A stretch of DNA of 64,000 nucleotides, from contig NZ_RKIE01000001.1 of NCBI RefSeq assembly GCF_003751785.1, forward strand, positions 124,001 through 188,000, in the 5' to 3' direction. How positions within the stretch are numbered: the first letter of the stretch is position 1; each line of letters begins with the position of its first letter. Below are positions 34,114-50,096 of the stretch, piece after piece. Both the position numbers and the translations under genes were made by a program. Source of the stretch: Frigoribacterium sp. PhB160. Its GTDB lineage: Bacteria > Actinomycetota > Actinomycetes > Actinomycetales > Microbacteriaceae. The notes beneath the pieces were generated by a model. It made no database searches. It was not told the origin of the DNA and was given only the letters and a program-made list of their open reading frames with translations.

Positions 34114-34198
34114 GGAGGGCTGTCCGAGCGGCCGATGGAGCTTGTCTTGAAAACAAGTGGGCAGAGATGTCTCGTGGGTTCGAATCCCACGCCCTCCG
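34114..34198 (+). tRNA. tRNA-Ser(TGA), integration target of the element
   Basis: Acceptor arm GGAGGGC (34114-34120) pairs with GCCCTCC (34191-34197), with discriminator G. The anticodon arm CTTGT-CTTGAAA-ACAAG gives anticodon TGA (serine, UCA); a long variable arm and the T-arm GTGGG-TTCGAAT-CCCAC follow. The T-arm and acceptor 3' half lie in the att repeat, so the integrated element supplies them. The next bases are CA-AA, so CCA is not encoded here, whereas at attR the chromosomal flank gives GCCA. Confidence 0.93.
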
Positions 34199-34199
34199 C
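34176..34199. repeat. attL: 24-bp integration core in tRNA-Ser
   Basis: Twenty-four bases from the T-arm (GGGTTCGAATCCCAC) through the acceptor 3' strand to GC, repeated exactly at 50073-50096. Left boundary of the 15.9-kb element. Confidence 0.88.
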
Positions 34200-34202
34200 A
34201 AA

Positions 34203-34243
34203 AGCCAGGCCCCCTGAATACCCCCGATATCGGGGGTCTGGCT
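34203..34243. terminator. Hairpin between tRNA-Ser and integrase
   Basis: CCCCCGATATCGGGGG (34221-34236) is a perfect palindrome inside outer arms AGCCAG/CTGGCT (34203-34208, 34238-34243). It lies between the convergent tRNA and int genes, so it may stop transcription both ways. Confidence 0.6.
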
Positions 34244-34248
34244 CGTCC

Positions 34249-35349
34249 TTATGAGCGTTCTGCCCACATTTTGCCCACAACTGTGTGCGCCAAGCCCTCA
34301 TCCAAACGTTCTGCAACCGCGTCCAGGTCGTCGTCGAACAGGTCGGAATAGACGTCCAAGGTCATTGACGCCGATGCGTGACCGAGCATCCGTTGTACTG
34401 CTTTGACGTTCGCCCCTGCGCTGACAGCAAGGCTCGCAGCTGTGTGTCGGAGCGTGTGCGGCGTCATGGCGGGGAGGCCGGCAAGCCTGACGGCGGCAGG
34501 GAACCAACCGTGGTCATTATGAGACCGGCGCTCGTGCGACCCGTGCCGATTTCCGAACAGCAGATCATCCCCAGATTTGCCTTCGCACTGCTGAGCAAGG
34601 GGGAAGGTCAGCAGGGCCGGGAATGGGACGCTACGGCGCTTGTGCGTCTTGGGTGTCCCGACCTCGATTCGGTCACCGACCTCGACGGCGTTGACCGTCA
34701 CGTTGATTCGACGCCGGAGCATGTCGAGGTCCTTGACCCGCAGACCCACGGCCTCACCCCAGCGGAGACCGCAGTAGGCGAGCGTCAGGACCAAGGTACC
34801 GCGATCGCCGGCAGCTATAGCCAGGGCTGACACCTGGTCATGCGTGAGATAGACGTGTTCTTTCTTCGTCTTGCGGGGGAGGTTGATGCCTCTAGCCGGG
34901 TTGCTCAGTAGCCGGCGGTCCTTAACCGCAACATCAAGGATGCCTGCCAGAACCCCGTAGACGCGGAGGACGGTGGTAGCGCCGCGCTCCCGTGACAGGT
35001 CGCTTATCCACGTCTGGACGTCGCTGTGGCGGATCTCGCTGACCTTCCGTGCACCCCACCTTGGCTCGACATACAGCCGCCATGCAATCTCGAGGGGCCG
35101 AAGTGACGACGGTTTTAGATGTGATTGGTTCGATAGCCACGGCGGCCCCAGAGCGCCAATGGTCTCCCGTGCGTCGGCAGGCTGCACGAACTCCCCGCGC
35201 GCCTTAGCGACCTCAATAGAGGCAAGGAACAGCTCGGCCTCGCGCTTTGTTTTGAAGCCACGCTTATCTGTCTGCTTTCGTTCGGGCGTGCGATACCGGA
35301 CGCGGTACCGCTTGCCGGCTGCCGATTCGTAAGGCGTGATGCTGCCCAT
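34249..35349 (-). CDS. int: Tyrosine recombinase (phage integrase)
   Basis: A 366-aa site-specific recombinase. It has an N-terminal arm-binding AP2-like region (KRYRVRYRTPERKQTDKRGFKTKREAELFLASIE), a SAM-like core-binding domain (about 60-155) and a catalytic domain with Arg196 (CGLRWGEA), His298 and Arg301 (HTLRH), His324 (LGH) and nucleophile Tyr334 (LDVYSDL). All catalytic residues are present. It sits 50 nt inside attL and is transcribed toward the tRNA. Its start overlaps the repressor stop (ATGA), so integrase and repressor are co-translated. A putative arm-type repeat lies within its last codons (34261-34279). Confidence 0.95.
   Translation of the reverse strand: MGSITPYESAAGKRYRVRYRTPERKQTDKRGFKTKREAELFLASIEVAKARGEFVQPADARETIGALGPPWLSNQSHLKPSSLRPLEIAWRLYVEPRWGARKVSEIRHSDVQTWISDLSRERGATTVLRVYGVLAGILDVAVKDRRLLSNPARGINLPRKTKKEHVYLTHDQVSALAIAAGDRGTLVLTLAYCGLRWGEAVGLRVKDLDMLRRRINVTVNAVEVGDRIEVGTPKTHKRRSVPFPALLTFPLAQQCEGKSGDDLLFGNRHGSHERRSHNDHGWFPAAVRLAGLPAMTPHTLRHTAASLAVSAGANVKAVQRMLGHASASMTLDVYSDLFDDDLDAVAERLDEGLAHTVVGKMWAERS
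34261..34279. repeat. Integrase arm-type site candidate, left
   Basis: TGCCCACAwTTTGCCCACA, a tandem of TGCCCACA, 61 bp inside attL. It matches 49951-49969 with one difference in 19 bases, in the same orientation. Confidence 0.6.
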
Positions 35350-35885
35350 CAGTCCGCCATGAAATGCGGAGTCATGTCGACTTTGAGCTGCCTCAGCGTG
35401 TGTGCCTGGCCCCGTAGTTCGAGCTCACGCACGTGCCTGTCCTCGGTTCCTTCTGGGCTGCGTGCCGCACCGTCTTCCGTGCGGAAGTATTCCGCGATGG
35501 CTGACATCATCTCGCGCGTGAATGCGCCCGCGGGCGTGGGGTCGGGGCTGCCAATGCCCCCGGGTTCGTCTTTTCCCTCAAACCATTTGGCTAGGGCCCA
35601 GGATCTGACTGCCACCAGTTCACCGGGGGAGGACACCGTTCGGACTGCTCGATACGGTTCGTCTACAGGTAGGGCCAAAACGACGGGCGGCACATCAAGC
35701 GCCCATGCCAGAGCGATAAGCTGATCGATCGTTATGTCGGTTTTGCGGCCACTCTCAATGTTCGCGATGACACCACGGCTCATCTCGCCGCCAAGGGCCT
35801 CACTCAGCTCGCGGGCACTAAGTCCAGCCAGCTTCCTGTACTTCGCGAGGCGTCGCCCGAATCCTGCGGATGCTCGTTCGCTCAT
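35349..35885 (-). CDS. XRE-family (CI-like) repressor
   Basis: A 178-aa DNA-binding protein. The N-terminal helix-turn-helix is GRRLAKYRKLAGLSARELSEALGGEMSRGVIANIESGRKTDITIDQLIALAWALDV (about residues 9-64). The C-terminal part is unlike LexA-type peptidases (no Ser-Lys pair seen), so classic RecA-driven autocleavage is not expected. ATG 35885. It is divergent from the small HTH gene at 36017 across an operator-like region and overlaps int. By position it is the lysogeny or element-maintenance repressor. Confidence 0.85.
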   Translation of the reverse strand: MSERASAGFGRRLAKYRKLAGLSARELSEALGGEMSRGVIANIESGRKTDITIDQLIALAWALDVPPVVLALPVDEPYRAVRTVSSPGELVAVRSWALAKWFEGKDEPGGIGSPDPTPAGAFTREMMSAIAEYFRTEDGAARSPEGTEDRHVRELELRGQAHTLRQLKVDMTPHFMAD

Positions 35886-35947
35886 GTCCTGATCGTAGAT
35901 GGTGTGCGTCCCTTTTGTGTTTCCCCGGACCACTTTCATTCTCCTAG

Positions 35948-36006
35948 ACACAGCCCCCAATGCGGGGTACTGTGTTTCACAGAGACAACGCGTCTCTGGC
36001 AGAGAC
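35948..36006. promoter_or_regulatory. Divergent control region with CAGAGAC operators
   Basis: CAGAGAC (35980-35986), inverted GTCTCTG (35992-35998) and CAGAGAC again (36000-36006), plus a wider ACACAG/CTGTGT pair (35948-35953, 35970-35975). They sit between the repressor and the small HTH gene and are the natural repressor operators. Confidence 0.6.
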
Positions 36007-36016
36007 AGGAGCAGAT

Positions 36017-36214
36017 ATGGACGAGTACCTGGACGGCGAGCAGGCGGCCGCTTACATCCCGGGCATGACAAAGGCCTTGCTGGCGCAGCTGAGGTTCAAG
36101 GGAACAGGGCCGGTATTTCTCAAGCCGACTCCGCGGAAGGTCATCTACCGCCGGAGCGACCTCGACAAGTGGCTAGCCGACAGTGTCCAGACGAGCACGC
36201 GAGCGTCGGCGTGA
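36017..36214 (+). CDS. Excisionase/MerR-like small HTH protein
   Basis: A 65-aa protein with a single HTH_17-type winged helix: DEYLDGEQAAAYIPGMTKALLAQLRFKGTGPVFLKPTPRKVIYRRSDLDKWLADS. This fold is typical of phage excisionases and MerR-like DNA-bending proteins. ATG 36017 follows AGGAG closely after the CAGAGAC operators; it is the first gene of the rightward operon. Excision or early gene control is likely; which of the two is not decidable here. Confidence 0.75.
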   Translation: MDEYLDGEQAAAYIPGMTKALLAQLRFKGTGPVFLKPTPRKVIYRRSDLDKWLADSVQTSTRASA

Positions 36215-36405: not shown

Positions 36406-36942
36406 ATGAACAACGTTAAGACCAGTGTGGCCGAGACCGCTGACAATGCAACAGCCCCCCGTCCGGAGGTCGACCGGGAGTGGATGGTGTCGCTCCGCGA
36501 GGAGTTCGACCTCCCCGCGGAACAGCTCGCCCGTGAGCTCGACATCACCGTCACCTACCTGACCGCACTTGAGGACGGCACCCTGCCGCTCTCACGCACC
36601 ATGTACCAGCGCATCACGCGGGCCATCACCTACCGTCCGCACCCGACCATCCACATCGACTGCGTGACCCCGGGCTGCAACCTGTTCGGCCTTGGGCACG
36701 TCGTCAGCAGGATCGACTACTACCGCGGCGAGAGCGTCACCCACACGGCGTTCGAGGACAACCGAGACGAGTGGCAGGTGCAGGTCACCCTGTTCGCGCC
36801 GCACACGACGTGGGGCGTCTGGACCGCCTTCGAGACCGACACCGACCCCGGCACCACCTGCGAAGCCTGGGCCGAGTACACCGCCACCGTCACCGGAGCA
36901 TTCCAGCTCGCCGGCCAGCTGAACGAGGAGGCCGGACGATGA
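36406..36942 (+). CDS. Phage early protein with N-terminal XRE-like helix-turn-helix
   Basis: A 178-aa protein. Residues about 28-72 (MVSLREEFDLPAEQLARELDITVTYLTALEDGTLPLSRTMYQRITRAI) look like a Cro/CI helix-turn-helix; the rest (about 75-178), with a CVTPGCNLFG segment and many aromatic residues, is unrecognised. I start it at ATG 36406 because of a strong CAGGAGGA at 36392-36399. The frame stays open back to GTG 36211, which overlaps the previous stop, so a 243-aa form is possible. Likely a regulator of the element. Confidence 0.65.
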   Translation: MNNVKTSVAETADNATAPRPEVDREWMVSLREEFDLPAEQLARELDITVTYLTALEDGTLPLSRTMYQRITRAITYRPHPTIHIDCVTPGCNLFGLGHVVSRIDYYRGESVTHTAFEDNRDEWQVQVTLFAPHTTWGVWTAFETDTDPGTTCEAWAEYTATVTGAFQLAGQLNEEAGR

Positions 36943-37297: not shown

Positions 37298-37975
37298 ATG
37301 ACTGATGCGCGACTTCGCGGCGAGTGGGTCAGCTCCATGAAGTTCGACAACCTCTCGGACAAGGCTTGGCGGATCTTCACGGGCGCTCTCATGTGGTCCG
37401 CCGAGAACGGGACAGACGGGTTCATTCCCGACCGCTACAGCAAGCGCCTCCACCCAGACGGCTCGGACATCCAGGCTGAATGGGAGCTGTCTGAAGCAGG
37501 TTTGTGGGAGAAGACCCGTGATGCGGACGGCAACAAGGGCATGCAGCTCGTCGACTGGGATGGCGCTCTTGGGCAGTCGCTCGCGATCCAGGTCGAGACG
37601 TACAGGGCGAATGCTCGTGGGCGTTCTCGCCGGTACCGCGAGAAGGAGCGGGCCAAGCTCGCCAAGTCGGTCGGGTTCACCGACGAGTCCGTTACGCGTG
37701 ACGTGACTGGTGACGTGACGAGTGAGGTGCGCCCGCACGTAGGCGAAGGCAAAGGCAAAGGCAGAGGCACAGGCGACGTGAACGACGAGGTTTCTCTGAA
37801 CGAGGAGACCGGAGAAGTCTCGATCCAGGGAGAACCGTTGTGGGAGACGGTGGCTATCCCATCTGGGAAGAAGTGTCGGGTGTGCCTCGACGCTCTGGCG
37901 GCTGATTTCCCGGGAGATGTCTGTTTTAGGCAGGATGCCGCTCACGTTAAGGCTCGAAGGGCTCGGGTCGCTTGA
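37298..37975 (+). CDS. Phage replication-type protein (replisome organiser-like N-terminus)
   Basis: A 225-aa protein. VSSMKFDNLSDKAWRIFTGALMWSAENGTDGFIPDRY resembles the winged-helix N-terminus of phage replication initiator or replisome-organiser proteins. A basic helical part (RGRSRRYREKERAKLAK) follows, then a linker with a GKGKGRGTG tract and a C-terminal cysteine pair (CRVCLDALAADFPGDVC). The start at 37298 has a perfect AAGGAGG. By position, in the early operon after small regulators, it probably drives replication of the excised element; a helicase or DnaC-like partner is not seen. Confidence 0.65.
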   Translation: MTDARLRGEWVSSMKFDNLSDKAWRIFTGALMWSAENGTDGFIPDRYSKRLHPDGSDIQAEWELSEAGLWEKTRDADGNKGMQLVDWDGALGQSLAIQVETYRANARGRSRRYREKERAKLAKSVGFTDESVTRDVTGDVTSEVRPHVGEGKGKGRGTGDVNDEVSLNEETGEVSIQGEPLWETVAIPSGKKCRVCLDALAADFPGDVCFRQDAAHVKARRARVA

Positions 37976-38604: not shown

Positions 38605-39072
38605 TCACGATGTCCGCGCGGCTCCCCACCGCAACCTGAGCCGCCCGAAGCGGGTCTCGCTGAGCTTGTCGACCATGGCTTGGTGCGCGGCGGCCTCGTC
38701 GGCCTCGGCGTCGAAGGATGCGGCGAGGAACAGCAGAAACAGGGCGGCGGTCAGGACGATTCCCACGAAGCACATCCACGCGAATACGGCCAAGGCTGGC
38801 GCTCTCAGTCCGTCGAGTTGGACCCCCAGCACGGCAAGGATGAGACCGAAGAAGCCAAAGCCGAGCGCCGCAGACATGACGTACACGAACAAACTGCGGG
38901 CCCGGATGCCCAGGTGCACGTTCCGGGCTTCCAGGATGACTGTGAGAAGCAGGACTGGGAAGACCCCGGCGAGTGTCGCGCAGGTGGATGAAGTCACGGA
39001 GTCGACTGTCGGCAGCGTTCTCAGGACTGTTAGCAAGGGGGCGAGGTGAAAGCTCCGGATGCGTACCTTCAC
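38605..39072 (-). CDS. Opposite-strand membrane protein, likely lysogenic cargo
   Basis: A protein of about 155 aa on the strand opposite to its neighbours. Three hydrophobic stretches are visible: LAGVFPVLLLTVIL, LFVYVMSAALGFGFFGLILAVLGV and ALAVFAWMCFVGIVLTAALFLLFLAA. An acidic/basic helical tail (DAEADEAAAHQAMVDKLSETRFGRLRLRW) follows. G/C-ending codons support this reading rather than the plus-strand ORF covering it. The start is uncertain: GTG 39072 gives this length, TTG 39036 and GTG 38997 are alternatives, and none has a clear ribosome site. Superinfection exclusion is a common role for such genes but is unproven here. Confidence 0.5.
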   Translation of the reverse strand: MKVRIRSFHLAPLLTVLRTLPTVDSVTSSTCATLAGVFPVLLLTVILEARNVHLGIRARSLFVYVMSAALGFGFFGLILAVLGVQLDGLRAPALAVFAWMCFVGIVLTAALFLLFLAASFDAEADEAAAHQAMVDKLSETRFGRLRLRWGAARTS

Positions 39073-39435
39073 GGCGACGACGGGCCGGTCGTCATTGTGC
39101 CGGCGCGTGTGGCTGCGTTTCTCAAGCGCCACACACCGTTGGACAAGCTGCGCCTCCAAGTCCGACCTACGGGGGACAGGGAGGTCTACGACGTCCTGAA
39201 TAGCCTGCAACGAGCCGCGCTGGCTTACATGCCGCCCGACCCCGTAGCAGACGATCAACCCGCCCGAGCTCAGATGGCAACGACAGTCACCACCCGTCAA
39301 GCGGCCACCCTGCTCCACTTGTCGACCCGGGGCGTCCGAGACGCATGCGAGAAGGGGCGGCTCGAGGGGCGCCTTATTGAGGGCAGATGGATCATCAGCC
39401 TCGCCTCAGTGAAGCGGTACGCAAAACCGACCTAG
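39046..39435 (+). CDS. Helix-turn-helix (MerR/excisionase-like) phage protein
   Basis: A 129-aa protein. The N-terminal part (DGPVVIVPARVAAFLKRHTPLDKLRLQVRPTGDREVYDVLNSLQRAALAY) is unrecognised. The C-terminal part is a winged helix, TVTTRQAATLLHLSTRGVRDACEKGRLEGRLIEGRWIISLASVKRYA, the HTH_17 form found in phage DNA-binding proteins. GTG 39046 with a GGGGGCGAG upstream. It comes before the packaging genes, so it may be a late-gene or packaging regulator. Confidence 0.65.
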   Translation: MKAPDAYLHGDDGPVVIVPARVAAFLKRHTPLDKLRLQVRPTGDREVYDVLNSLQRAALAYMPPDPVADDQPARAQMATTVTTRQAATLLHLSTRGVRDACEKGRLEGRLIEGRWIISLASVKRYAKPT

Positions 39436-39540: not shown

Positions 39541-40146
39541 ATGCCCGCTAGCCCCGCACCCACCTACGCCAGCTCTCTTCACGAGCAGGCAGAGAAGACC
39601 AAGACCGAATTCCACCGCCGCGCGGACACCATCCGCGCAGACAACCGACTCAGCCCCCAGGGTAAGCAGCACGCGATCGCCAAGCTTTACGCGACAACTA
39701 AGCCCGCACTCGAAGCGCTCGGCGCAACCTACGACACAGGCCGCGCGGAACGACGGTCCACCCTCGAGCGTGACCTTTTCGGCCTCAAGTCCGGCGCGCT
39801 GAGCACCGACACCATCAGCTACCGCGACGCCATGGACCGAGTTGCAGGAGTGAAGGATCAAGCAGATCTTCTCCCCATCCTCCGCACTGCCAACCTCAGC
39901 GGTGACACCATCCTCGGCAAGGCAGTCCTCGCTCGAGCCTTTGAGCTGGGCGAGGTGGGCACCATTAATCAGTGCATCGAAGCAAGCCCGGCGCTCGAGA
40001 AGGACGTCGTCGAGCTGTGGGGGCTGAGCGCACCCAACGACTTCCAGAGCATGTTCAACGACACGATGTTCGCCGTGCAGAAGCCGACCGAGATCGCTGC
40101 ACTGAGCGACTCTGCGATCAATGGCATGGCCACCGCAGAGGAGTAA
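39541..40146 (+). CDS. Phage protein of unknown function preceding the HNH gene
   Basis: A 201-aa, mostly helical protein: SLHEQAEKTKTEFHRRADTIRADNRLSPQGKQHAIAKLYATTKPALEALGATY, then ALSTDTISYRDAMDRVAGVKDQADLLPIL and repeats of short Ala-rich helices. ATG 39541 is backed by AGGAGG. Proteins in this position in actinophages are usually uncharacterised. Its helical, charged style would fit a scaffold or packaging helper, but that is a guess. Confidence 0.6.
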   Translation: MPASPAPTYASSLHEQAEKTKTEFHRRADTIRADNRLSPQGKQHAIAKLYATTKPALEALGATYDTGRAERRSTLERDLFGLKSGALSTDTISYRDAMDRVAGVKDQADLLPILRTANLSGDTILGKAVLARAFELGEVGTINQCIEASPALEKDVVELWGLSAPNDFQSMFNDTMFAVQKPTEIAALSDSAINGMATAEE

Positions 40147-40150
40147 TCCA

Positions 40151-40435
40151 TTGCCTGCCAGTGGCAGTGCCTGGAACCGGCTGCGTGCCCAGCTCAAAGC
40201 ACAGTGGCAGAGGGAGGGCAGAGCCTGCGCGCTCTGCCACCAGCCCATCGACTACAACGCACCAGCCGGCAAGCCACGCGCTTTCACCCTTGACCACATT
40301 CTCGCGACCAGCCACGGCGGAGAACCGCTGCGGATCAGTAACCTCCGGGCGGTCTGCGCCTCTTGCAATAGCGCGCGAGGCAATGGAGAAGGTCGACGTT
40401 CCCGCTTCGACTACCCGACCAGTCGAACTTGGTGA
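40151..40435 (+). CDS. HNH endonuclease (packaging-associated)
   Basis: A 94-aa nuclease: WNRLRAQLKAQWQREGRACALCHQPIDY, then TLDHILATSHGGEP and NLRAVCASCNSARGNG. Zinc cysteines are at about residues 26/29 and 69/72, the metal-binding His is in LDHI (49) and the Asn is at about 64. I start it at TTG 40151, 8 nt after GAGGAG. HNH genes directly before the small terminase gene are typical of cos-type HK97-like phages, where the nuclease helps terminase cut DNA. It is therefore part of a packaging module, not a homing nuclease. Confidence 0.8.
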   Translation: MPASGSAWNRLRAQLKAQWQREGRACALCHQPIDYNAPAGKPRAFTLDHILATSHGGEPLRISNLRAVCASCNSARGNGEGRRSRFDYPTSRTW

Positions 40436-40554: not shown

Positions 40555-40926
40555 GTGAGCGAAACGAACTCACCCCAAATGCCCCCTCCGACGCCTCGCA
40601 ACCTCAACGCCGCTGGGCGCAAGCTTTGGGACGCATCGACGGATCCGGAGGCATTTGAGTGGGCGCAGCACGAGCTGGCGATCCTCGAAGAGGCTTGCCG
40701 GACTCGAGACCGCATTGTGCAGCTCGATCAGGCGGTGGCTAGTGATGGCGTGATGATCTCGTCGTCACAAGGCAGCCGCGTGCATCCAGCCATTGGCGAG
40801 AGTCGGCAGCAGCGACTTGCGCTTGCACGTCTCCTGTACACCCTTGGGATCCCGCCGCTTGAAGATGACGTGTTGCCAAAAACTGCTGGCGTCCGTGGCT
40901 TTTACCGCGGTAGCGCCACGCGCTAA
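40555..40926 (+). CDS. Phage terminase small subunit, P27 family
   Basis: A 123-aa DNA-recognition subunit. PPPTPRNLNAAGRKLWDAST...EWAQHELAILEEACRTRDRIVQLDQAVASDGVMI...HPAIGESRQQRLALARLLYTLGIPP is the P27/Terminase_4 layout (helical bundle, then HPxxxExR). GTG 40555 follows GAAAGGA. In a complete phage the large terminase gene follows; here it is absent. A small terminase without its large subunit is what PICI-type satellites use to divert helper packaging. It is also what a deletion could leave. Confidence 0.75.
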   Translation: MSETNSPQMPPPTPRNLNAAGRKLWDASTDPEAFEWAQHELAILEEACRTRDRIVQLDQAVASDGVMISSSQGSRVHPAIGESRQQRLALARLLYTLGIPPLEDDVLPKTAGVRGFYRGSATR

Positions 40927-41575: not shown

Positions 41576-41623
41576 GTCGTCAAAGTATCGCCATCTAATC
41601 CAAACCTGAGAATTCAGCAAATC

Positions 41624-41652
41624 AAGGACCCGCCAATGTCGCGGGTCCTTTT
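41624..41652 (+). terminator. Rho-independent terminator just before the tape measure gene
   Basis: AAGGACCCGC (41624-41633) pairs with GCGGGTCCTT (41641-41650), followed by TT. It faces rightward and lies 40 nt before the tape-measure start, without a visible promoter between. Confidence 0.8.
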
Positions 41653-41691: not shown

Positions 41692-44373
41692 ATGGCAGCC
41701 AACAGGACGACCCGCGTAAGCCTGGTCGCAGAAGTCAGCTCGTACGTCGCTGGAATGGAACGTGCGGCCCGTTCCACCCGTCAGACGGGCGACGCAGCGC
41801 AGCAGCTCGCGCAGCGCCGCGAGGGCATCGACACCCTCGGCAAGACCATGTTTGCCGCTGGGGCCGTCATGGCCGCGGGGGTCGGTTTGGCCGTGGCTAA
41901 GTTCGCTGAGTTCGACCAGGCCATGTCCGCCATTCAGGCGGCGACGCACGAGACCGAAGCGAACATGGGCCTGCTCCGACAGGCGGCGATCGACGCGGGC
42001 GGGGCGACCGCTTTCTCGGCTACCGAAGCCGCCGGCGCGATCGAGGAACTTGCTAAGGCGGGGCTCTCGACTGCCGAGATCCTCAGCGGTGGTCTGGCGG
42101 GCGCCCTCGACCTCGCCGCCGCCGGCGGGCAGAGCGTCGCTGACGCCGCGCAGACGACCGCGATTGCCATGAAGCAATTCGGGCTCGAGGGCGACAAGGC
42201 CTCGCACGTGGCCGACCTCCTTGCAGCCGGTGCGGGCAAAGCTGTCGGTGACGTGTCCGACATGGCCGCAGCTCTGGGTCAGGCGGGTCTGGTCGCGAAT
42301 CAGACCGGGCTGAGCATCGAGGAAACGACCGGTGTCCTGGCGGCTTTCGCTGATCAGGGTCTGCTCGGTTCTGACGCTGGTACGTCGCTCAAGACGGCCC
42401 TGCAGGCGCTTACCCCGTCGTCGAAGGAAGCGGCCCGGGAGATGGAACGGCTCGGGATCTCCGCGTTTGACGCTCAGGGCAATTTCATCGGGATCTCCGA
42501 GTTCGCCGGGGTGTACCAGAACGCACTCCGCGACCTGTCTCCCGAGCAGCAGGCGGCGACGTCGAAAATCATCTTTGGCTCTGACGCAGTGCGGGCAGCG
42601 AATGTCCTGTACACGAACGGTGCTCAGGGCATTCAGAAGTACATCGACCAGACCAACGACAGCGGTTATGCCGCCGAGACGGCCCGGATCAAGATGGACA
42701 ACCTGGCGGGCGATATCGAGAAGCTCGGGGGCGCGTTCGATACAGCTCTGATCCAGGGTGGGTCTGGTGCAAACGACGTTCTGCGTGAGGTCACCCAGGG
42801 CGTGACGTTCCTGGTGGACGCCGTTGGTGGTGCCCCTCAGCCCGTCCTGAATGCGGGGCTTGCCATCGCAACTGTGGGGGCAGCTGTGGGCATCGTCGGT
42901 GGTGGCGCTCTCCTGGCCGTACCCAAGGTGATTGCGTTCAAGGCCTCCCTCGACACCCTCGGCATTTCCGCCGGCCGGGCAGCCGCGGCGACCGTCGCAA
43001 TCGGTGGCGCTATCGGCCTGGCTGCGGTCGCGGTGGGGACTCTCGTGGGGCAGCAGGCGAAGGTGGCGGCGACTACCGCTGAGCTGGCTGACACGCTCGA
43101 CGAGGCGACTGGTGCGACTACCCAGTACACCCGTGCGTCTATCGCTCGGAAGCTGTCCGACGAGGGCATTTTCGACACGGCGAAGAAAGCCGGTGTGGGC
43201 CAGAAGGAACTCACTGACGCGATCCTCGAGGGCGGCGACGCACTCGAGGAAGTGCAATTGAAAATTGGTGACCTCAACACCGCTGGAAACGTGTTCAACG
43301 GCCTGGCCCTGAAGTCGGATCTTGCTGGCCGATCCATTCAGGATCTACGGCAGTCAGTCGAGAATGCCCCGACCAAGTTCGAGGATCTGAAGAAAGCTGG
43401 TGACGAAGCGGGCGAGGGCATGGCGAACACCGCTGATGGGCTCTCGCAGGTGCAGGCAGCTAGTGCAGATGCTGGGGCAGAGATTGACGACCTTAAGGCA
43501 ACGATTGAAGGTTTCGGTTCTGCGCAGCTCGACGTGAACTCGGCTACTCGCGACTTCGAGGCAGCCGTCGACGGGCTGACTGACTCGGTGAAAGAGAACG
43601 GGCAGAGCCTGGACGTGACCACCGCGGCGGGGCGTGAGAACGAGGCAGCTCTCGACCAGATTGCACAGTCTGCCCTGGGGCTCTCGAGTGCGACGCTGGC
43701 TCAGACAGGTTCGCAGGAGAAAGCCTCTGCGGCGCTCTCTGTGGGCCGTAAGAAGCTCATTGAGGCTCTCGGGGCACTCGGTATCACCGGGCAGGCTGCG
43801 GAGGACTACGCGGACCGCCTGGGGCTCATCCCGAGCAACATCGCAACGGCAGTGAACCTCTCCGGTGCTCAGAACGCGATCGACAAGGCCTATCAGGTTG
43901 CTTCTGCGATTCGGAACATTCCGGGTCAGCGCGACATCGTGATCAATCAGGTTGTGCGCGAGACGGATGCAGCTCGAGGTGTCGTCGGGGCCGCGTACGC
44001 CGCCGGCGGGGCAGTGCAGGGCCCCGGCCCGGTCGGGCGTGACTCCGTTGTCGCCATGCTCGCCCCTGGTGAGCACGTCCTCACGGACAAGGACGTGAGC
44101 CGTCTGGGAGGACAGTCCGGCGTCTACGCAATGCGAGCCAGCCTCGCCGCTGGAACGTTCCCCAGATACGCGAAGGGCGGTCCGGTCGGGATCAAGCACT
44201 ACACCTACGGGCAGGCTGCGGCCTATTCAGCCGCGACGGCCCCTGCCCCGCAGATCAATGTCTCGATTCAGTCGAAGGGCGGCATCGACCTGCTCAAGTA
44301 CGTGGACGTGCGGATCGACCGGGCCGACCAGGCCGCGAGCCTGTCTAACCGGATGGGCCGACAGGTCCGCTGA
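41692..44373 (+). CDS. Phage tail tape measure protein
   Basis: An 893-aa protein that sets tail length in siphophages. N-terminal segment TRVSLVAEVSSYVAGMERAARSTRQTGDAAQ, then the PhageMin_Tail core (FDQAMSAIQAATHETEANMGLLRQAAIDAGGATAFSATEAAGAIEELAKAG), central hydrophobic segments (about 380-460), long Ala/Gln-rich helices, and a C-terminus with PGEHVLTDKDVSRLGG as in actinophage tape measures. At about 0.15 nm per residue it would specify a tail of roughly 130 nm. AGGAGG precedes the ATG. The tail chaperone genes (frameshift pair) expected upstream are absent, and so is every minor tail gene but the spike. Confidence 0.9.
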   Translation: MAANRTTRVSLVAEVSSYVAGMERAARSTRQTGDAAQQLAQRREGIDTLGKTMFAAGAVMAAGVGLAVAKFAEFDQAMSAIQAATHETEANMGLLRQAAIDAGGATAFSATEAAGAIEELAKAGLSTAEILSGGLAGALDLAAAGGQSVADAAQTTAIAMKQFGLEGDKASHVADLLAAGAGKAVGDVSDMAAALGQAGLVANQTGLSIEETTGVLAAFADQGLLGSDAGTSLKTALQALTPSSKEAAREMERLGISAFDAQGNFIGISEFAGVYQNALRDLSPEQQAATSKIIFGSDAVRAANVLYTNGAQGIQKYIDQTNDSGYAAETARIKMDNLAGDIEKLGGAFDTALIQGGSGANDVLREVTQGVTFLVDAVGGAPQPVLNAGLAIATVGAAVGIVGGGALLAVPKVIAFKASLDTLGISAGRAAAATVAIGGAIGLAAVAVGTLVGQQAKVAATTAELADTLDEATGATTQYTRASIARKLSDEGIFDTAKKAGVGQKELTDAILEGGDALEEVQLKIGDLNTAGNVFNGLALKSDLAGRSIQDLRQSVENAPTKFEDLKKAGDEAGEGMANTADGLSQVQAASADAGAEIDDLKATIEGFGSAQLDVNSATRDFEAAVDGLTDSVKENGQSLDVTTAAGRENEAALDQIAQSALGLSSATLAQTGSQEKASAALSVGRKKLIEALGALGITGQAAEDYADRLGLIPSNIATAVNLSGAQNAIDKAYQVASAIRNIPGQRDIVINQVVRETDAARGVVGAAYAAGGAVQGPGPVGRDSVVAMLAPGEHVLTDKDVSRLGGQSGVYAMRASLAAGTFPRYAKGGPVGIKHYTYGQAAAYSAATAPAPQINVSIQSKGGIDLLKYVDVRIDRADQAASLSNRMGRQVR

Positions 44374-44445: not shown

Positions 44446-46167
44446 ATGGTCATGCGACTTGTAGGAGCAGACAGCCAGACCGGCAAGCTGCCCGACATTG
44501 TTCTCGACGAACTGCAGGCCCGCTTCCCCCGAAAAGCCGACATCAACGTCTACGACTACGGCGCAACCGATGTCAGCTCAATGACGGACCCTGCAATTGC
44601 CCCGTCCTCCCAGAACGCCATCGATCGGGCCGTAGCGGCGGCGGAAAAGCTTGTAGTGGGCGAAACGCGGGTATGGATCTCGATCCCCTACGGAGCCATC
44701 AAAGGCACCATCACGGTGCAGTCGCCGTTCATCTGCGTCACGGGACCGGGTTCCCTCGTCGAGGGTCAGCTCGTGTTCCAGCCCCCGGCAACCGGACAGC
44801 AGCTTCGATTCCATTCCGTTGTCTTCAACATGGGTTTCCGCCCCCTAAACGCGTCCGTCAACCGTGGGGAGAACGGCATCCGTGTCGTGGCTGGGGCTTC
44901 GATCGAGATCATGTCGTGCCGGTTCCGTGACATGCCCAAGGCCGTGCATCTCGACAGTTGGGCCGACACCACGGGGCAGCAGAACAAGACAATCGACGTG
45001 CATCACAACCAGATGACCAACGTCGACTACGGCCTCTACGCCCCCTTGAAAGGTGCGAACACGTGGGACACCCACGCCGACTCGAAGTTCAACGAGAACG
45101 TCGTGCGGCTCGCGTACGTCTCGCATGTGTGGGTCGGTGGGGCGGATGGTTTCGACGTCCACGGAAACACCCTGTTCCACGTTGGACGGGACTCGACCGA
45201 TCTCAGCCGACGGAACCAGAAGGAAGACTCGATCTACTTCGGACCTCGCTCCAACTTCCTCAAGATCGGAACCAACCAGATCTTTGAGGCTGGACGCTCT
45301 GGCATCTTCCTTGATCGGGTTACAGACGCGAACGTGGTCGGCAACACCCTCGCCTGGTGCGGCCAGAACCTGCAGGTACCCGCCATCCGGCTCGTGACCA
45401 GCTCCACGTCTCTGACCGCCGCCATCCTCATCGACGCGAACATTGTCGAAGAGTGCACCCATCATGGAATCGGCATCAGCGGTGACGGCAACGCAGGCAA
45501 CATCACCATCACCGACTCGAACGTCATCCGTCTTATTGGCGACAGCGCCCGAAACGTCTACCGGGGCGACTCCATGGGCAACGGCCCACTCGTTACCAAC
45601 GACATCGCGCGCATTTTCGTCGCCTCGACCGTGACCGTCGTCCCACGGCTGACCATCACCCAGATGCCGCGCGGCAGCCGAAACGGTGTTGTGTCCATCA
45701 AGGGGATGTACTCGAGCGCGCGCAGTCAGCCCTTTGCAGACAACTACGAGACGACCATCAACCTCACGAAGACCGTCGCTCAGGGAACGGCTACAACAGT
45801 TGGTGTCCTTCGGTCCGCGGGCGACAACCCTTCCGAGACGACCTTCGTCGGGCTGGTGACCGTAGTAGTGAAGAACACCACCGCGAACTTCGTGGGGCGC
45901 TATGAGTTCACTGCGGCCTCGAACGGCACCAACAAGAGCGTGCAGAATCTGCGCACGGCAGGATCAGTTTCGGCGATCACAGACGGCACGACTCCGGCAT
46001 TCGTTTTCACCATCGCGTCGTCCGGCAGCAGTGTTATTGCCACCCCTCAGGGCAACACGGCGGGCACATTCGAATTCACAGTGACGGCGACTGGCTACCT
46101 GCAGACCAGTTACACGCAGGCAGAGTTCAACGGCCTGCAGCTCATCACCTCCCTCTCGACGAGCTGA
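44446..46167 (+). CDS. Tail spike-like protein with right-handed beta-helix (pectate-lyase-like)
   Basis: A 573-aa protein. The short N-terminus (MRLVGADSQTGKLPDIVLDEL) looks like a particle-attachment peptide. DINVYDYGATDVSS begins a pectate_lyase_3-type beta-helix, with repeated turns such as IEIMSCRFRDMPKAVHL, IDVHHNQMTNVDYGLY, FDVHGNTLFHVG and ANVVGNTLAWCGQ. A C-terminal beta-rich domain (about 410-573) follows. It probably binds or cuts host surface polysaccharide. ATG 44446 follows AGAAGGAGA. It comes straight after the tape measure terminator, without distal-tail genes between. Confidence 0.8.
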   Translation: MVMRLVGADSQTGKLPDIVLDELQARFPRKADINVYDYGATDVSSMTDPAIAPSSQNAIDRAVAAAEKLVVGETRVWISIPYGAIKGTITVQSPFICVTGPGSLVEGQLVFQPPATGQQLRFHSVVFNMGFRPLNASVNRGENGIRVVAGASIEIMSCRFRDMPKAVHLDSWADTTGQQNKTIDVHHNQMTNVDYGLYAPLKGANTWDTHADSKFNENVVRLAYVSHVWVGGADGFDVHGNTLFHVGRDSTDLSRRNQKEDSIYFGPRSNFLKIGTNQIFEAGRSGIFLDRVTDANVVGNTLAWCGQNLQVPAIRLVTSSTSLTAAILIDANIVEECTHHGIGISGDGNAGNITITDSNVIRLIGDSARNVYRGDSMGNGPLVTNDIARIFVASTVTVVPRLTITQMPRGSRNGVVSIKGMYSSARSQPFADNYETTINLTKTVAQGTATTVGVLRSAGDNPSETTFVGLVTVVVKNTTANFVGRYEFTAASNGTNKSVQNLRTAGSVSAITDGTTPAFVFTIASSGSSVIATPQGNTAGTFEFTVTATGYLQTSYTQAEFNGLQLITSLSTS

Positions 46168-46179
46168 GCGATAGTTCTT

Positions 46180-46204
46180 GGGGCTCAGCGTCGTGCTGAG
46201 CCCC
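46180..46204. terminator. Terminator after the tail spike gene
   Basis: GGGGCTCAGC (46180-46189) pairs perfectly with GCTGAGCCCC (46195-46204) around a 5-nt loop. Confidence 0.7.
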
Positions 46205-46250
46205 AGGCCCGTTCGACGGTCGTGCCTGGGCGCACCAGGCAGCGCTTATC

Positions 46251-46256
46251 TAGGCT
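46251..46256 (+). promoter_or_regulatory. -10 box TAGGCT of the secreted cargo gene
   Basis: TAGGCT lies 30 nt before ATG 46286, with GAGAGG at 46271-46276, so this gene has its own promoter and a normal leader. Confidence 0.5.
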
Positions 46257-46285
46257 TGGGGAAACCCGACGAGAGGCTGACACCG

Positions 46286-46876
46286 ATGTCCCTGGCAGTT
46301 ACGACCCGACGCAACTTCGCCGCCCTGGCGGCCTCGACCATGGCAGTGACCTTGCTCCTCGCCGGCACACCCGCTCAAGCCGCCGAAACGGGACCATCGA
46401 TCAAGGCCACCATCTCCCGCGTCCAAGAGAAGCCCTCCTACTACCGCACCGTGGACGGTATTCGAGAGCCTGTCTACGAACTCGCCGAGGGCGACACCAT
46501 TCACGTCCGGGCGCGAATGGCCAACAACGGCAGCGACTCGTACTGGGCCATGCGCATGGACTTCGTGACCATCGGTGACGACATCTTCGACACTCCTGAC
46601 GTGCCCGCGTACATCGAGGGTCCGACGACGAATTGGGGCACGCAGTTTGGTGCTCGCTACATCGGTCAGCAAGGCCCGTACGTCCGCCGAACGATGGTCG
46701 TCTACAAGGACGTCGCCCCGGGCGAATCCTCGCTGCTTTCGTACCCGATCACAGTTGACTCGCTGCCCGTAAAGGGCAAGCTGTACAAGGCGCGGTTTGA
46801 GAACAAGAGCAGCGTCTCGGACCCCAGCCTGAAGTCGACCGCGACCTCGGAACGCATCTGGATCGTGCGCAAATAG
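46286..46876 (+). CDS. Secreted protein of unknown function (element cargo)
   Basis: A 196-aa protein with a clear Sec signal (FAALAASTMAVTLLLAGTPAQAAE, cleavage after AQA near residue 33). The mature part is beta-rich (IKATISRVQEKPSYYRTVDGIREPVYELAEGDTIHVRARMANNGSDSYWAMRMDFV...VAPGESSLLSYPITVDSLP), resembling an immunoglobulin-like or DUF11-like fold. It has its own promoter and is closed by a strong hairpin, so it can be expressed while the element is integrated. Function unknown. Confidence 0.7.
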   Translation: MSLAVTTRRNFAALAASTMAVTLLLAGTPAQAAETGPSIKATISRVQEKPSYYRTVDGIREPVYELAEGDTIHVRARMANNGSDSYWAMRMDFVTIGDDIFDTPDVPAYIEGPTTNWGTQFGARYIGQQGPYVRRTMVVYKDVAPGESSLLSYPITVDSLPVKGKLYKARFENKSSVSDPSLKSTATSERIWIVRK

Positions 46877-46991: not shown

Positions 46992-47258
46992 ATGGGTCAG
47001 ACGCTAAGGCCGACCACCGTTGTCCCGCACGCGGCAAGCCAGCTTCGGACCGACTTGCCGCGGCACGGTCGAGATCGCCACGTCAGTGTGACGCTCAACG
47101 GACATACCGGCTGGTTTGTTCGCGGAGACTGGCCCGCAGGTCACGTCGAGGGGGAGGCCGAAGTTTTTACTCCTCGCAAGCATTCTGCAGCTCTTCCGCC
47201 GACGCCACGAGGGCCTTCCAGTCGAAGGCGGAAGCGTCCCGAGGGCTTAGGAACTTGA
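46992..47258 (+). CDS. Possible small ORF or gene remnant
   Basis: Between the hairpin at 46910 and the GntR gene the only candidate is an 88-codon frame from ATG 46992, with protein-like sequence in its first part (VSVTLNGHTGWFVRGDWPAGHVEGEAEVF) but an Arg-rich end that overlaps the convergent GntR gene by about 90 nt. There is no clear ribosome site. The first 58 codons may be the remnant of a gene cut by the arrival of the GntR cargo. Confidence 0.25.
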   Translation: MGQTLRPTTVVPHAASQLRTDLPRHGRDRHVSVTLNGHTGWFVRGDWPAGHVEGEAEVFTPRKHSAALPPTPRGPSSRRRKRPEGLGT

Positions 47259-47751
47259 CTCGAGTTCGCAGTGGCTCCTCCGTGCCGACCATGAGTGCGT
47301 TCCCGCTGGCGCGAACAAGGTGGCCCTGCACATCGAGGAACAGTCCCGGTGCCTTCAGGTCCCGTGCGGCTGCAGCCTTACGCACAGCCTTGAGGTCGTG
47401 CCTTATCTGCTTCCGATCCGCAGCGCTCAAGTTGCCAAGACCCCATTGCCGGCCGAGGCTATGGATGCCTGCGAGGAACTGGCTGGCTTCGGCGTAGAGG
47501 TCATCATCGAGAGACGCGACACGCGTGAACCTGTTGGCCTCGATCTCGACGAGGCCGTAGCTCGCGAGCTGCGCGATGGCCTCGCGGATGGGCGTACGAG
47601 ACGCACCCAACCAAGCCGACAGCTCACTGTCGTTCAGTCGCTCTCCGGGCTCGAGCGTGCCGTCGACGATGGCGGCGAGGATCTGGTCGTAGACGACGTC
47701 GCGGAGAAGGCGGCGAGGTCCGGTGGTTTCTTCCCGAGTGGGTACTGGCAT
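47167..47751 (-). CDS. GntR-family transcriptional regulator
   Basis: A 194-aa regulator. N-terminal winged helix: RRLLRDVVYDQILAAIVDGTLEPGERLNDSELSAWLGASRTPIREAIAQLASYGLVEIEANRFTRVAS (about 12-78), the classic GntR motif. The C-terminal domain (about 85-194) is helical and shorter than a full FCD domain, so it may be a reduced FadR-type ligand domain. It lies in the right-end cargo group, GC-poorer than the host. Likely controls nearby cargo; target unknown. Confidence 0.82.
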   Translation of the reverse strand: MPVPTREETTGPRRLLRDVVYDQILAAIVDGTLEPGERLNDSELSAWLGASRTPIREAIAQLASYGLVEIEANRFTRVASLDDDLYAEASQFLAGIHSLGRQWGLGNLSAADRKQIRHDLKAVRKAAAARDLKAPGLFLDVQGHLVRASGNALMVGTEEPLRTRVKFLSPRDASAFDWKALVASAEELQNACEE

Positions 47752-47803: not shown

Positions 47804-48460
47804 TCAACCGATCTTGGTCCAGGTGCCGCAGCGCTCAGAACTGAACGCGACATCGCCCGGCAGGATCGAAACTACCGCTGGGCCCGATGGCAGATCGTTG
47901 GCAATAAGGTCGCTAAAGTCTCCGGACGTGCCTCTTAATCTCGCCCAGTAGCAATCATCGGATCCCGTGTTCCGATATTGGCCGGGCTGGATGTCGGTAC
48001 CTACGAGGTGCACACCCGAACCGAATTCGTTAGCTTTCTTAGCGGCTTCCGCCGTCCCCACGGCCTGTTCGCGAGCAACAAGCTCGACTTCACGCGCGTC
48101 CGCAGCGGCCTGCGCCTTCTCGACTTCATTCGCCGCCTCCTCGAGCTTGCCCTTGGCGACGCGCAGTTCGCTCACCTGCTCGCGCAACTCATCGATGTCG
48201 TCGTCCTTGGCCGAGGCGGTGCGATCAAGCCGCCCCTGCAGGGCTGCGTACTCGGGCGTCTCTGTGGCAACCGGCGTGGCGCTGGCCACGATTCCAGCGC
48301 CCGCCAAACCGCCGACGACAAGGGCGACGGCAACACAGCAGGCTACAACGGCGTTCCTGCTGGTTCCCAAGTGCGTAAGGCGTGCCTTGACCTGACTGCG
48401 AACCCCACGGGCACTCGTTTTCAAGGCGTCCTCATCTCGGTCCACATACATGAGGGACAC
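47804..48460 (-). CDS. Single-pass membrane protein with coiled coil and C-terminal beta domain
   Basis: A 218-aa protein. A cytosolic N-terminus of about 37 residues leads into TM AVVACCVAVALVVGGLAGAGIVAS, then a coiled coil (LQGRLDRTASAKDDDIDELREQVSELRVAKGKLEEAANEVEKAQAAADAREVELVAREQAV) and an outward domain with GSGVHLVGTDIQPGQYRNTGSDDCYWARLRGTSGDF. That last motif recurs in secreted actinobacterial proteins of unknown function. The start may be GTG 48460 or ATG 48451; TAGTGT lies 5 nt before the latter. Cargo of the element; role unknown. Confidence 0.65.
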   Translation of the reverse strand: MSLMYVDRDEDALKTSARGVRSQVKARLTHLGTSRNAVVACCVAVALVVGGLAGAGIVASATPVATETPEYAALQGRLDRTASAKDDDIDELREQVSELRVAKGKLEEAANEVEKAQAAADAREVELVAREQAVGTAEAAKKANEFGSGVHLVGTDIQPGQYRNTGSDDCYWARLRGTSGDFSDLIANDLPSGPAVVSILPGDVAFSSERCGTWTKIG

Positions 48461-48619
48461 TACGGTTTAGCTCATTTGGTGTCGACGCCCCAGTACTGGG
48501 CCTGTCATTGGTGGTCCCCTCTCCCGCGACCACCAAATACCACCTGGGATAGACCGTTTTCACACACGGAACATCGACCGGGGATTGGTCCGGGCTGTTC
48601 GCTCCGATTGACTACTCAT

Positions 48620-49930
48620 ATGCCTCACCGTGACGACTATTTGAACGAGAAGCAGGTCACCGTCCTGAAATGGGTCGATGCCGGGGCGGACCCCAATGCA
48701 TACCCCGAGGGCGATTACGCGCATCGCATCTCTGCGCGGGGCCTCGCTAATCGCGGGTTGGTCGTTATATCTGGGCAGGGATCGACGTGGTCGGCAGCGT
48801 TGACGAGCGATGGGCACAAGCGGCTTGCTGACTTGCCACGGAACCCACCGCCAAACGTCAGCGCCGATCTCTTCGCAAGGGTCCTTGCTGCTGGCGGTTC
48901 GCTTCTCATTAGCGAAGACGACACGACGAACTACAACGCACTCGTCGAGAACTCGCTGCACAGCCCAAGCCGGCCACACGGTCAGAAGCTCGAGACGAGA
49001 AGCGAGGGGCCATGGTTCCGTGCTCGCGTTGTCGAGGTGTACTTGACCGAGTTCCCGCGCGAGCTGATCCAACCTAAGCCGGTGCCTATTGCGGCCCGCC
49101 TGCGCAACCCACACCCTGTAGTCAAGGCGTTCAAGTCAAACCCTGATGCCAGCTACGTATCGAAAGGGTCGATGGATCGCGCGGCACGTGTGTACGACGC
49201 CATTGCCAAGGAAGCCGAGCAGCGGGGCTACCGGGCACAGGACCGGGAGACATTCCTTCGCGGCCACCAGGTGAGCCTTGGGGCAGGGCACCTGGTGATT
49301 ACCGCACAGGACCACAATTTCCCCATTGCCGTGCGTGAGATCTCAGGAACGGGCGGGGCGAAGCTGGAGTACCCCGCGAAGTACAAGCAGCCAGCGTGGG
49401 TCCAAAATCGCGGCTATGAATTCGTGTCTACGGGCAAGCTCGAATTGCGCATCGATGGCCCCGGGACGCCGTACCAAGGTCAAAAGCTGCGGGAGACACG
49501 GCAGCGCTCTATCGAGGACATCTTGCCGGAGGTCTTCGTCACCATCGAAGTTGGTGGCCAGGACGCGAGGCGAGCCGAGAAGCAGCGACAGGTGCGTCTG
49601 CTCGAGCGTCAGTCGAGGTGGGAAGCGGCCATGGATGCCGCTAAGGCCAAGCACCGGGCCGTTCAAATTCAGACTTTCATCGCCTCGAAGGCAGAGGAAT
49701 GGAGGGCCGACCAGGAGCTGTCCAAGTTCCTAGATGCCCTCGAACAGCGCATGCCTGAGATGAGTCCGGAGCAGCGAGACATCGCGGCCACCTGGCTGGG
49801 CCAAGGAAGGTCCAACGTTCAAGGCCACAAACTGATCGACGAACTGCCGCCCTTGCAGGTTTTCCTTCCGCAAGCCGGCGAGCTCCGGCAGTACCTCCCG
49901 GACGCATTCACCGAGACGCGTCCGAGCTAG
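48620..49930 (+). CDS. 436-aa protein of unknown function at the attR end
   Basis: A cytosolic protein with three apparent parts: an N-terminal winged-helix-like region (EKQVTVLKWVDAGADPNAYPEGDYAHRISARGLANRGLVVISG...ALTSDGHKRL, about 8-70), a central globular part (about 100-280), and a C-terminal region with a charged coiled coil (ARRAEKQRQVRLLERQSRWEAAMDAAKAKHRAVQIQTF) ahead of a helical end. It resembles, from memory, large uncharacterised actinobacterial proteins often found on mobile DNA that end in a long charged helix. No catalytic motif is evident. It sits in the usual cargo position beside attR, divergent from the membrane coiled-coil gene. No ribosome site precedes ATG 48620. Confidence 0.7.
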   Translation: MPHRDDYLNEKQVTVLKWVDAGADPNAYPEGDYAHRISARGLANRGLVVISGQGSTWSAALTSDGHKRLADLPRNPPPNVSADLFARVLAAGGSLLISEDDTTNYNALVENSLHSPSRPHGQKLETRSEGPWFRARVVEVYLTEFPRELIQPKPVPIAARLRNPHPVVKAFKSNPDASYVSKGSMDRAARVYDAIAKEAEQRGYRAQDRETFLRGHQVSLGAGHLVITAQDHNFPIAVREISGTGGAKLEYPAKYKQPAWVQNRGYEFVSTGKLELRIDGPGTPYQGQKLRETRQRSIEDILPEVFVTIEVGGQDARRAEKQRQVRLLERQSRWEAAMDAAKAKHRAVQIQTFIASKAEEWRADQELSKFLDALEQRMPEMSPEQRDIAATWLGQGRSNVQGHKLIDELPPLQVFLPQAGELRQYLPDAFTETRPS

Positions 49931-49950
49931 GCAAGGCAGCCTCAGTTCCG

Positions 49951-49969
49951 TGCCCACAATTTGCCCACA
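49951..49969. repeat. Integrase arm-type site candidate, right
   Basis: TGCCCACAwTTTGCCCACA, 103 bp inside attR, matching the copy at 34261-34279 inside int. Confidence 0.6.
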
Positions 49970-50072
49970 TGTGAGCGCGGCCCTAGTAAGTCAAAGTTTG
50001 CGAAAGGTGGCCAAAAAGCTTGTAAGTGCCGTTCTCTCAGTAGCCCACTGTGTAGCCGCTAGGCGCTGGGCA

Positions 50073-50096
50073 GGGTTCGAATCCCACGCCCTCCGC
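50073..50096. repeat. attR: 24-bp integration core
   Basis: Exact repeat of 34176-34199. The next chromosomal bases are CA, so the undisrupted tRNA gene would have read discriminator G followed by encoded CCA. The attR copy is a tRNA 3' fragment only. Confidence 0.88.

Follow-up and report, generated by a model that had tools for sequence, protein, structure and literature searches.

A probable phage satellite of Frigoribacterium with its own tape measure gene belongs to a widespread actinobacterial family

A compact element integrated at a tRNA-Ser gene

The window analysed here, a 64,000-nucleotide stretch of the genome of Frigoribacterium sp. PhB160 (contig NZ_RKIE01000001.1, positions 124,001 to 188,000), contains an integrated element of 15,897 bp that lies between exact 24-bp direct repeats (att cores) and that an initial annotation had taken for either a phage satellite or a deleted siphoprophage. 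The attL core (34176-34199, forward strand) is the 3' end of a tRNA-Ser(TGA) gene (34114-34199) and is matched exactly by the attR core (50073-50096, forward strand), as that annotation had stated. The site was unoccupied in five out of five aligned same-genus genomes (L153-L157), where tRNA-Ser(TGA) and the right flank are about 100 bp or less apart; the survey covered 16 same-genus genomes including the host itself, the right flank adjoining the site aligned in five others, and the rest matched only farther right of the site and were uninformative on occupancy. The GC content of 1-kb blocks was 0.605-0.658 in the element and 0.683-0.803 in the remaining window. With an integrase, flanking att repeats and small size, the element has the features of site-specific integration.

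The gene order runs from integrase and repressor through divergent helix-turn-helix (HTH) genes, a replication-initiation-type (Rep-type) gene, small genes and a gene for a helical protein (39541-40146) to an HNH endonuclease, the terminase small subunit (TerS), a small terS-linked gene, an 893-aa tail tape measure protein (TMP), a spike-like protein of 573 aa and some 4 kb of cargo with a GntR regulator. The gene list covers 91% of the element, the largest uncovered gap being 290 bp. The tyrosine integrase (366 aa; 34249-35349, reverse strand; PF00589, E 1e-22; phrog_1, E 4e-68) has 60% identity to its counterpart in an element of Microbacterium sufflavum (L177). The HTH repressor (35349-36071, reverse strand; HTH_3, E 4e-12), whose true start is probably deeper within the open reading frame (ORF), is divergent from a small HTH/excisionase-like gene (35960-36214, forward strand) with a weak match (phrog_66, E 6e-4). 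Further along the forward strand lie an HTH regulator-like protein (36406-36942; weak HTH_31/HTH_3 matches, E 6e-4, below the curated cut-offs), the 225-aa Rep-type protein (37298-37975; phrog_2447, E 1e-15), with homologues in three of 148 other genomes including that of a satellite host (G026), and an HTH_17 protein (39046-39435; PF12728, E 1e-6). The element has divergent regulators, the excisionase-like gene being a weak call, and a replication gene of its own. The HNH endonuclease (104 aa; 40121-40435, forward strand; PF01844, E 2e-9; phrog_338, E 3e-22) precedes TerS (123 aa; 40555-40926, forward strand; phrog_1496, E 3e-17).

Integrase, HTH repressor, other HTH genes, Rep-type gene, HNH, TerS, TMP and spike are all present and uninterrupted, and Pfam or PHROG matches bear out the integrase, the divergent repressor/HTH switch, the replication-type gene, HNH and TerS that had been annotated initially. 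The absences noted at that time also held, as scans of 20 element proteins against PHROGs and Pfam recognised no large terminase (TerL), portal, major capsid protein (MCP), tail tube or lysis protein, so that the element has its own TerS without TerL, portal or capsid. In a search of the host genome with one TerL family, the sole match was a distant resident prophage. Capsid-forming phage-inducible chromosomal islands (cf-PICIs) encode head components and both terminase subunits; this complete set is not found in the element.

Tape measure and tail spike

The 893-aa TMP (41692-44373, forward strand) is intact (PF10145, E 2e-44; phrog_1533, E 2e-90), and its profile also matches two solved tape measures, 9g8s and 8zdo. 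It shares 64% and 60% identity with the TMPs of phages L052 and L054, respectively (best segments, residues 1-890), and 72% with that of phage L056 over 508 N-terminal columns. In six comparisons of TMPs, omega (dN/dS) ranged between 0.12 and 0.29, indicating purifying selection.

The 573-aa tail-spike-like protein (44446-46167, forward strand) is uninterrupted, although its identity is a weaker call than that of the tape measure with which it was first annotated. The Pfam Beta_helix match reached 25.3 bits against a gathering cut-off of 25.9, no match was found in PHROGs or among PDB sequences, and the predicted structure was unusable (predicted local distance difference test, pLDDT, 33.8). 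The protein is 49-51% identical to the gene ending the tail module of the host genome's own full-length prophage. Its residues 1 to 29-31 form an N-terminal peptide common to phage tail-end genes, with 71-76% identity to those of L054 and L052, in the latter at residues 19-47 of the called ORF; past this peptide the remainder resembles the resident-prophage spike. On these alignments, the spike N-terminus and the TMP both point to one phage type, L052/L054, and an attachment peptide would be expected to recur in this way at the N-terminus of spikes that otherwise differ.

The resident prophage lies at about 1358-1394 kb of the host genome (G000:C1; L138, L046) and carries a TerL match, its own TMP and the spike relative. 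It is a possible helper or spike donor. As a TMP donor it was not supported, the TMP class being different and only one TMP match being present in the genome.

Recurrence of the compact gene order

The distance between TerS and TMP separates two kinds of loci: 108-1214 bp in 12 loci, the window included, and 8543-12563 bp in 10 phage-type loci. The total of 12 includes IMG/VR and GTDB contigs, and the 11 loci other than the window have differing flanks. Among 149 related genomes, TerS matches occurred in 12 and TMP matches in 20; the two lay within 1.4 kb of each other in six genomes (G000, which is that of the window, G019, G024, G026, G040 and G123) and 9-11 kb apart, as in phages, in three (G100, G109 and G114). 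A survey of 327 genomes of the order gave TerS matches in 35 genomes (38 places) and TMP matches in 54, with co-located pairs that were short in four (G000, G040, G123 and G226) and long in seven (G100, G109, G114, G180, G189, G218 and G411). Regions of 17-20 kb were inspected for 17 of these 35 TerS genomes, the others having mostly weak matches, and G407 and G100 proved to be full phages.

Two IMG/VR contigs close on themselves. L129 does so at 10,239 bp, its termini repeating 127 bp exactly, and in L089 the sequence recurs with a period of 10,178 bp, at 97% identity over 5.9 kb of the sequence analysed. Both encode an integrase, an AAA-type Rep (PF13481 in L129, to which the L089 Rep is 97% identical), a conserved 243-aa gene, TerS and TMP, and home-made head-gene profiles found no TerL, portal or MCP in either; of 43 phage-type loci with at least 8.5 kb upstream of the TMP, the same profiles recovered head genes in 40. 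The compact form therefore recurs as an independent lineage and is not a single remnant. Full-length siblings with no conserved short form elsewhere, which the initial annotation had proposed as the mark of a one-off deletion, are not what was found, given 11 other short loci and two closing contigs.

The two self-closing contigs come from the same metagenome (3300042934) and are 86.5% identical over 3.4 kb, with 97% identity for Rep, 93% for the 243-aa gene, 81% for the integrase and 80% for TerS. Their TMPs were only 37% (BLAST) or 42% (MAFFT) alike. Instead, the TMP of L089 was 91% identical to that of L086 and 90% to that of L092, and the TMP of L129 80% identical to that of L119, all three being contigs of the same metagenome. 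L092 has TerL and portal, and L086 and L119 share L092 structural genes; the home-made profiles found no head gene on L086 and L119, which are partial contigs. Homology between L089 and L086 begins 15 bp inside the TMP ORF and stops 24 bp before its end, with a dN/dS of 0.12. This pair, carrying different TMPs in one sample, amounts to a natural experiment.

Both elements also encode a protein of 122-124 aa (L089:2074-2448; L129:9073-9441) that has 30-44 residues in common with the C-terminus of a phage head scaffold (BLAST E about 1e-8). The phage counterpart is a recognised scaffold gene (phrog_4708, E 3e-23) lying immediately upstream of a recognised capsid gene (phrog_267, E 2e-69). In the L129 protein, residues 44-73 align with the end of the scaffold family phrog_2592 (E 6e-4). 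By analogy with the scaffold mimics of Staphylococcus aureus pathogenicity islands (SaPIs), such as CpmB, this protein is a possible capsid-size decoy or scaffold mimic.

Separate histories of TerS and the tape measure

The window TerS is 74% identical to that of a Frondihabitans satellite (L042/L168), with an omega of 0.17 against L042, but only about 36% identical to the TerS of phage L056, the owner of the tree-nearest TMP, and hence terS and TMP of the window do not derive from one L056-like phage. In a TerS tree of nine phage and 33 satellite rows, the phage label needed two changes (shuffled mean 8.3; as low in 0 of 500 shuffles). The TMP tree, built from 45 phage loci with TerL, portal or MCP on the locus and 10 satellite TMPs, gave a different picture: the satellite TMPs needed 10 changes, the maximum, and a single satellite clade was rejected by the approximately unbiased (AU) test (p-AU 2.3e-14), in keeping with independent TMP origins. 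An earlier 86-row TMP tree, whose 76 non-satellite rows were labelled phage by default, gave the same picture; L165, L170 and the TMPs of other classes were left out of both trees.

Near neighbours on the TerS tree also differ in what lies beside terS. L165 has a TMP and L164 has none, L172 has a capsid homologue that L171 lacks, and L176/L177 have a TMP of another class where L140 has none. Because the TerS and TMP trees tell different histories and TerS neighbours carry different adjoining genes, terS is part of the satellite backbone and the structural gene has been recruited.

A wider satellite family

The family was catalogued as 35 elements (33 non-redundant satellite-type loci with the same TerS lineage and two from a phylum survey), drawn partly from TMP-based searches. 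A TMP was present in 18 of them, 12 of the window class, five of another class (L147, L176, L177, L181 and L182) and a weaker match in L173 (profile E 6e-25, PHROGs only 2e-5), without which the count is 17. Six elements carried an MCP homologue (L144, L148, L149, L172, L178 and L182). A strict either/or between TMP and capsid gene, expected from the first 33 elements, was dropped, as L182 carries scaffold, MCP and TMP genes together. A scan of 15 loci by TerS only, which is free of the bias of TMP searches, gave a TMP in six (L165, L168, L170, L173, L176 and L177), an MCP homologue in two (L172 and L178) and neither, as far as recognised, in seven. The hosts of these 15 loci include Herbiconiux, Frondihabitans, Cryobacterium, Microcella, Microbacterium, Leucobacter, Arthrobacter, Cellulomonas, Demequina, Ruania, Sphaerisporangium and Pseudonocardia.

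For 14 related elements, 8.1-15.3 kb long, direct repeats mark the ends, and in most of them one of the two copies lies within or next to a tRNA or tmRNA gene. These are L041 (15.3 kb, at tmRNA), L044 (12.1 kb), L139 (10.3 kb), L143 (10.2 kb), L142 (9.6 kb) and L145 (9.0 kb) and, at tRNA genes, L140 (8.9 kb, tRNA-Arg), L149 (10.9 kb, tRNA-Lys), L148 (10.6 kb, tRNA-Phe), L166 (10.0 kb, tRNA-Arg), L171 (9.2 kb, tRNA-Lys), L172 (8.1 kb, tRNA-Ser), L175 (8.8 kb, tRNA-Asn) and L176 (12.0 kb, tRNA-Leu). The searches were made in chosen zones of 12 and 10 loci and did not include L057, L089, L129, L141, L144, L146, L147, L150, L165 or L178; no repeat longer than 15 bp was found for L042, L043, L045, L164, L170, L177, L181 and L182, the L167 repeat was multi-copy and was dropped, and that of L173 is only 17 bp.

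The capsid homologues sit near terS, upstream or downstream, and resemble capsid redirection of the SaPIbov5 type in a new setting. The scaffold gene of L182 belongs to phrog_4708, and L149 has a 43% relative of that scaffold gene. Elsewhere in the family, the satellite in G026 carries an AriA/GajA-like ATPase (L041:13108-14982; PADLOC E 7e-20), which is likely a defence gene. L104, a 29-kb contig from metagenome 3300042923 of which 22.5 kb was analysed, begins with phage head genes and continues through a TMP and satellite genes to a second, cut-off TMP; this is either a genuine junction or a chimera made during assembly at the TMP that both share.

Other genes of the element

The gene upstream of terS (39541-40146, forward strand) has homologues in L057 (77% identity), L042 (39%) and L041 (30%) and is a conserved satellite gene. 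Its product was predicted to be all-helical (pLDDT 80.6), with no fold match at E <= 0.001 and no match at E <= 0.01 among 50,697 phage records. It was considered as a scaffold mimic and rejected, being all-helical without a fold match and having a C-terminus that, by eye, is unlike the proteins upstream of phage MCPs. The small terS-linked gene (40926-41174, forward strand) is probably not a tail chaperone, because its profile also matches satellites in which it stands beside terS without a recognised TMP. Between this gene and the TMP, a hydrophobic 173-aa ORF (41171-41692, reverse strand) is an uncertain gene, with no family match and no similar ORF in the other loci compared.

Downstream of the spike lie a 232-aa cargo protein (46178-46876, forward strand) with a likely signal peptide (by eye) and no Pfam or PADLOC match, the GntR-family regulator (47167-47751, reverse strand; PF00392, E 9e-15), a 218-aa membrane/coiled-coil cargo protein (47804-48460, reverse strand) with weak matches only, Rz-like spanins among them (E 0.006 and 0.03), and a 437-aa cargo protein of unknown function (48617-49930, forward strand) with no PHROG or PADLOC match and one Pfam match below cut-off. 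The GntR regulator is 61% identical to a gene of phage L076 and 55% identical to a gene of satellite L042. No convincing match to a defence gene was found by PADLOC among the window cargo.

Interpretation

Taken together, these results make the element a probable phage satellite, belonging to a widespread actinobacterial family and similar to PICIs of the TerS type, whose TMP would be matched to its helper and used in hybrid tails. The case for satellite status itself, built on sequence comparison, is strong but indirect. The element would integrate at tRNA-Ser and be held there by its repressor; on growth of a helper siphophage, upon which it would depend, it would excise and replicate via its own Rep protein, and its TerS, with HNH, would steer the helper large terminase and heads to satellite DNA. 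The satellite TMP and spike may then enter hybrid tails, with tube and baseplate from the helper and ruler and spike from the satellite, which could affect tail length, ejection or competition with the helper. This step is proposed because the N-terminal peptide of the spike matches the same phage type as the TMP relatives, and by analogy with the phage-inducible chromosomal island-like elements (PLE) of Vibrio cholerae. The TMP would be a helper-matched gene, replaced through exchange with phages. A broader proposal, to which we give an even chance, is that the position beside terS is an exchangeable assembly-gene position, at which single virion genes (TMP, capsid, scaffold end, spike) are recruited from surrounding phages and swapped with the helper, giving hybrid virions keyed to the helper, with the TMP as a helper-specific, cassette-like adaptor.

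Several points weigh against this interpretation. The resident prophage has a spike relative, but its TMP is of another class, unmatched by the satellite TMP query or profile. The TMP is optional, since neither TMP nor capsid homologue was recognised in 12 of the 35 elements, and no tail chaperone was recognised in the element, whereas PLE11 pairs its TMP with one. The omega values are rough, as dS exceeded 1 in several pairs, and omega between the TMPs of L089 and L129 was 0.50. On the TerS tree the phages form two groups, for which a single clade was not rejected (p-AU 0.138). Among elements whose ends were measured, that of the window is the largest, and most of the cargo it carries is absent from the others; L042, L043 and L045 were placed as satellites by layout and TerS, and the TMP of the Cryobacterium element L170 (L170:10898-13647) is split by a frame shift, whether real or a draft error.

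The alternative left by the initial annotation, a siphoprophage remnant left by deletion of the head genes and most tail genes from between terS and TMP, now appears the most improbable of the explanations considered. The order HNH-TerS-(gap)-TMP-spike is the expected product of a simple internal deletion, and a full-length prophage whose spike is related is present in this genome, but the compact order in 11 other loci with different flanks is a conserved short form that largely refutes such a deletion. The TerS identities to satellite and phage L056 given above indicate different sources for terS and TMP, and the intact named genes and the closure of the sibling contigs into 10.2-kb circles argue against a remnant. 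With the compact form so repeated and the TMP repeatedly recruited, a satellite is favoured over a deletion.

It is also unlikely, though less so than a deletion, that the TMP acts as a weapon, entering helper tail assembly non-productively so that helper tails are blocked and the host population is protected. Interference with tail assembly is a known defence of satellites and prophages, as reported for Tai (PMC11364771) and for Rta of PLE11 (PMC12987554), and the match of satellite TMPs to particular phages would fit this role; full-length TMPs under purifying selection nevertheless suggest an assembly function, as a blocker could be shorter, and a phage-type peptide at the N-terminus of the spike is in line with virion building. 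That TMP and spike are passive cargo, brought in by recombination at a terS hot spot and without a role in transfer, would accord with the 12 elements lacking a recognised TMP or MCP and with the variable flanking cargo. We consider it very unlikely, since the same gene class was recruited independently beside terS in the 18 TMP-bearing elements (17 without L173) and TMP frames were kept in all but L170, with omega well below 1 where measured.

Repeated independent TMP recruitment is seen here in a family unrelated to the Vibrio PLE and in a different phylum. The relatives that carry a capsid homologue instead suggest that one genomic position may redirect head or tail assembly. Whether a satellite needs its own ruler, and whether that ruler must match the helper, become testable questions in soil bacteria. 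Elements under 15 kb have been suggested as possible satellites (PMC10023795), and many of the small "remnant prophages" of actinobacteria could be satellites too.

Comparison with known satellite systems

The closest functional precedent is PLE of Vibrio cholerae, likewise an integrated satellite encoding its own TMP, which according to PMC12987554 replaces that of the helper in virions, giving chimeric tails, and is needed for efficient transfer; deletion of tmp from PLE11 lowered transduction by roughly 99.9%. As PLE, PLE-like elements and some cf-PICIs encode tmp or putative tmp genes (PMC12987554, 2026), the view in the initial annotation that a satellite acting on helper tails through its own tape measure would be a novelty is out of date. 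In the literature searched, tail piracy by satellites has been shown in Vibrio PLE alone, and the authors of that report left open what the satellite gains from it and relied on gene maps for how widely it occurs. PLE differs from the window family in having a contractile-tailed lytic helper in Vibrio and, in PLE11, an added tail chaperone and hub (PMC12987554), whereas the window family has phage relatives in Actinomycetes, no recognised chaperone, a TerS of its own and TMPs recruited anew from different phages.

In size, integrase and divergent regulators, own replication gene, and TerS without TerL or portal, the element is like TerS-type PICIs and SaPIs (in part after PMC10690885). The likeness is one of gene content, and the window element differs in carrying TMP and spike. 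With cf-PICIs it shares virion genes in a satellite, some of these also carrying a putative tmp (PMC10690885, PMC12987554), but it is without the head set and TerL, and its relatives have one to three assembly genes with no TerL or portal recognised. MulchRoom and MiniFlayer of Streptomyces are actinobacterial phage satellites too (PMC10690885); unlike the window element, they are described there as having a capsid and both terminase subunits and as lacking replication genes, and the available account does not mention a tape measure (the word "tape" is absent).

The capsid homologues beside terS in the six relatives L144, L148, L149, L172, L178 and L182 are like Ccm of the SaPIbov5 type (PMC8569155). 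The short protein of L089 and L129, which contains the C-terminal part of a phage head scaffold, is like the SaPI scaffold mimics (CpmB), and no gene of either kind was recognised in the window element. The available texts of the literature searched, which took in few subscription papers or preprints, describe no capsid-less TerS-type satellite family of Actinomycetes with exchangeable structural genes. The tail-piracy mechanism thus has its precedent in PLE, while the actinobacterial family and its exchangeable structural gene appear to be new.

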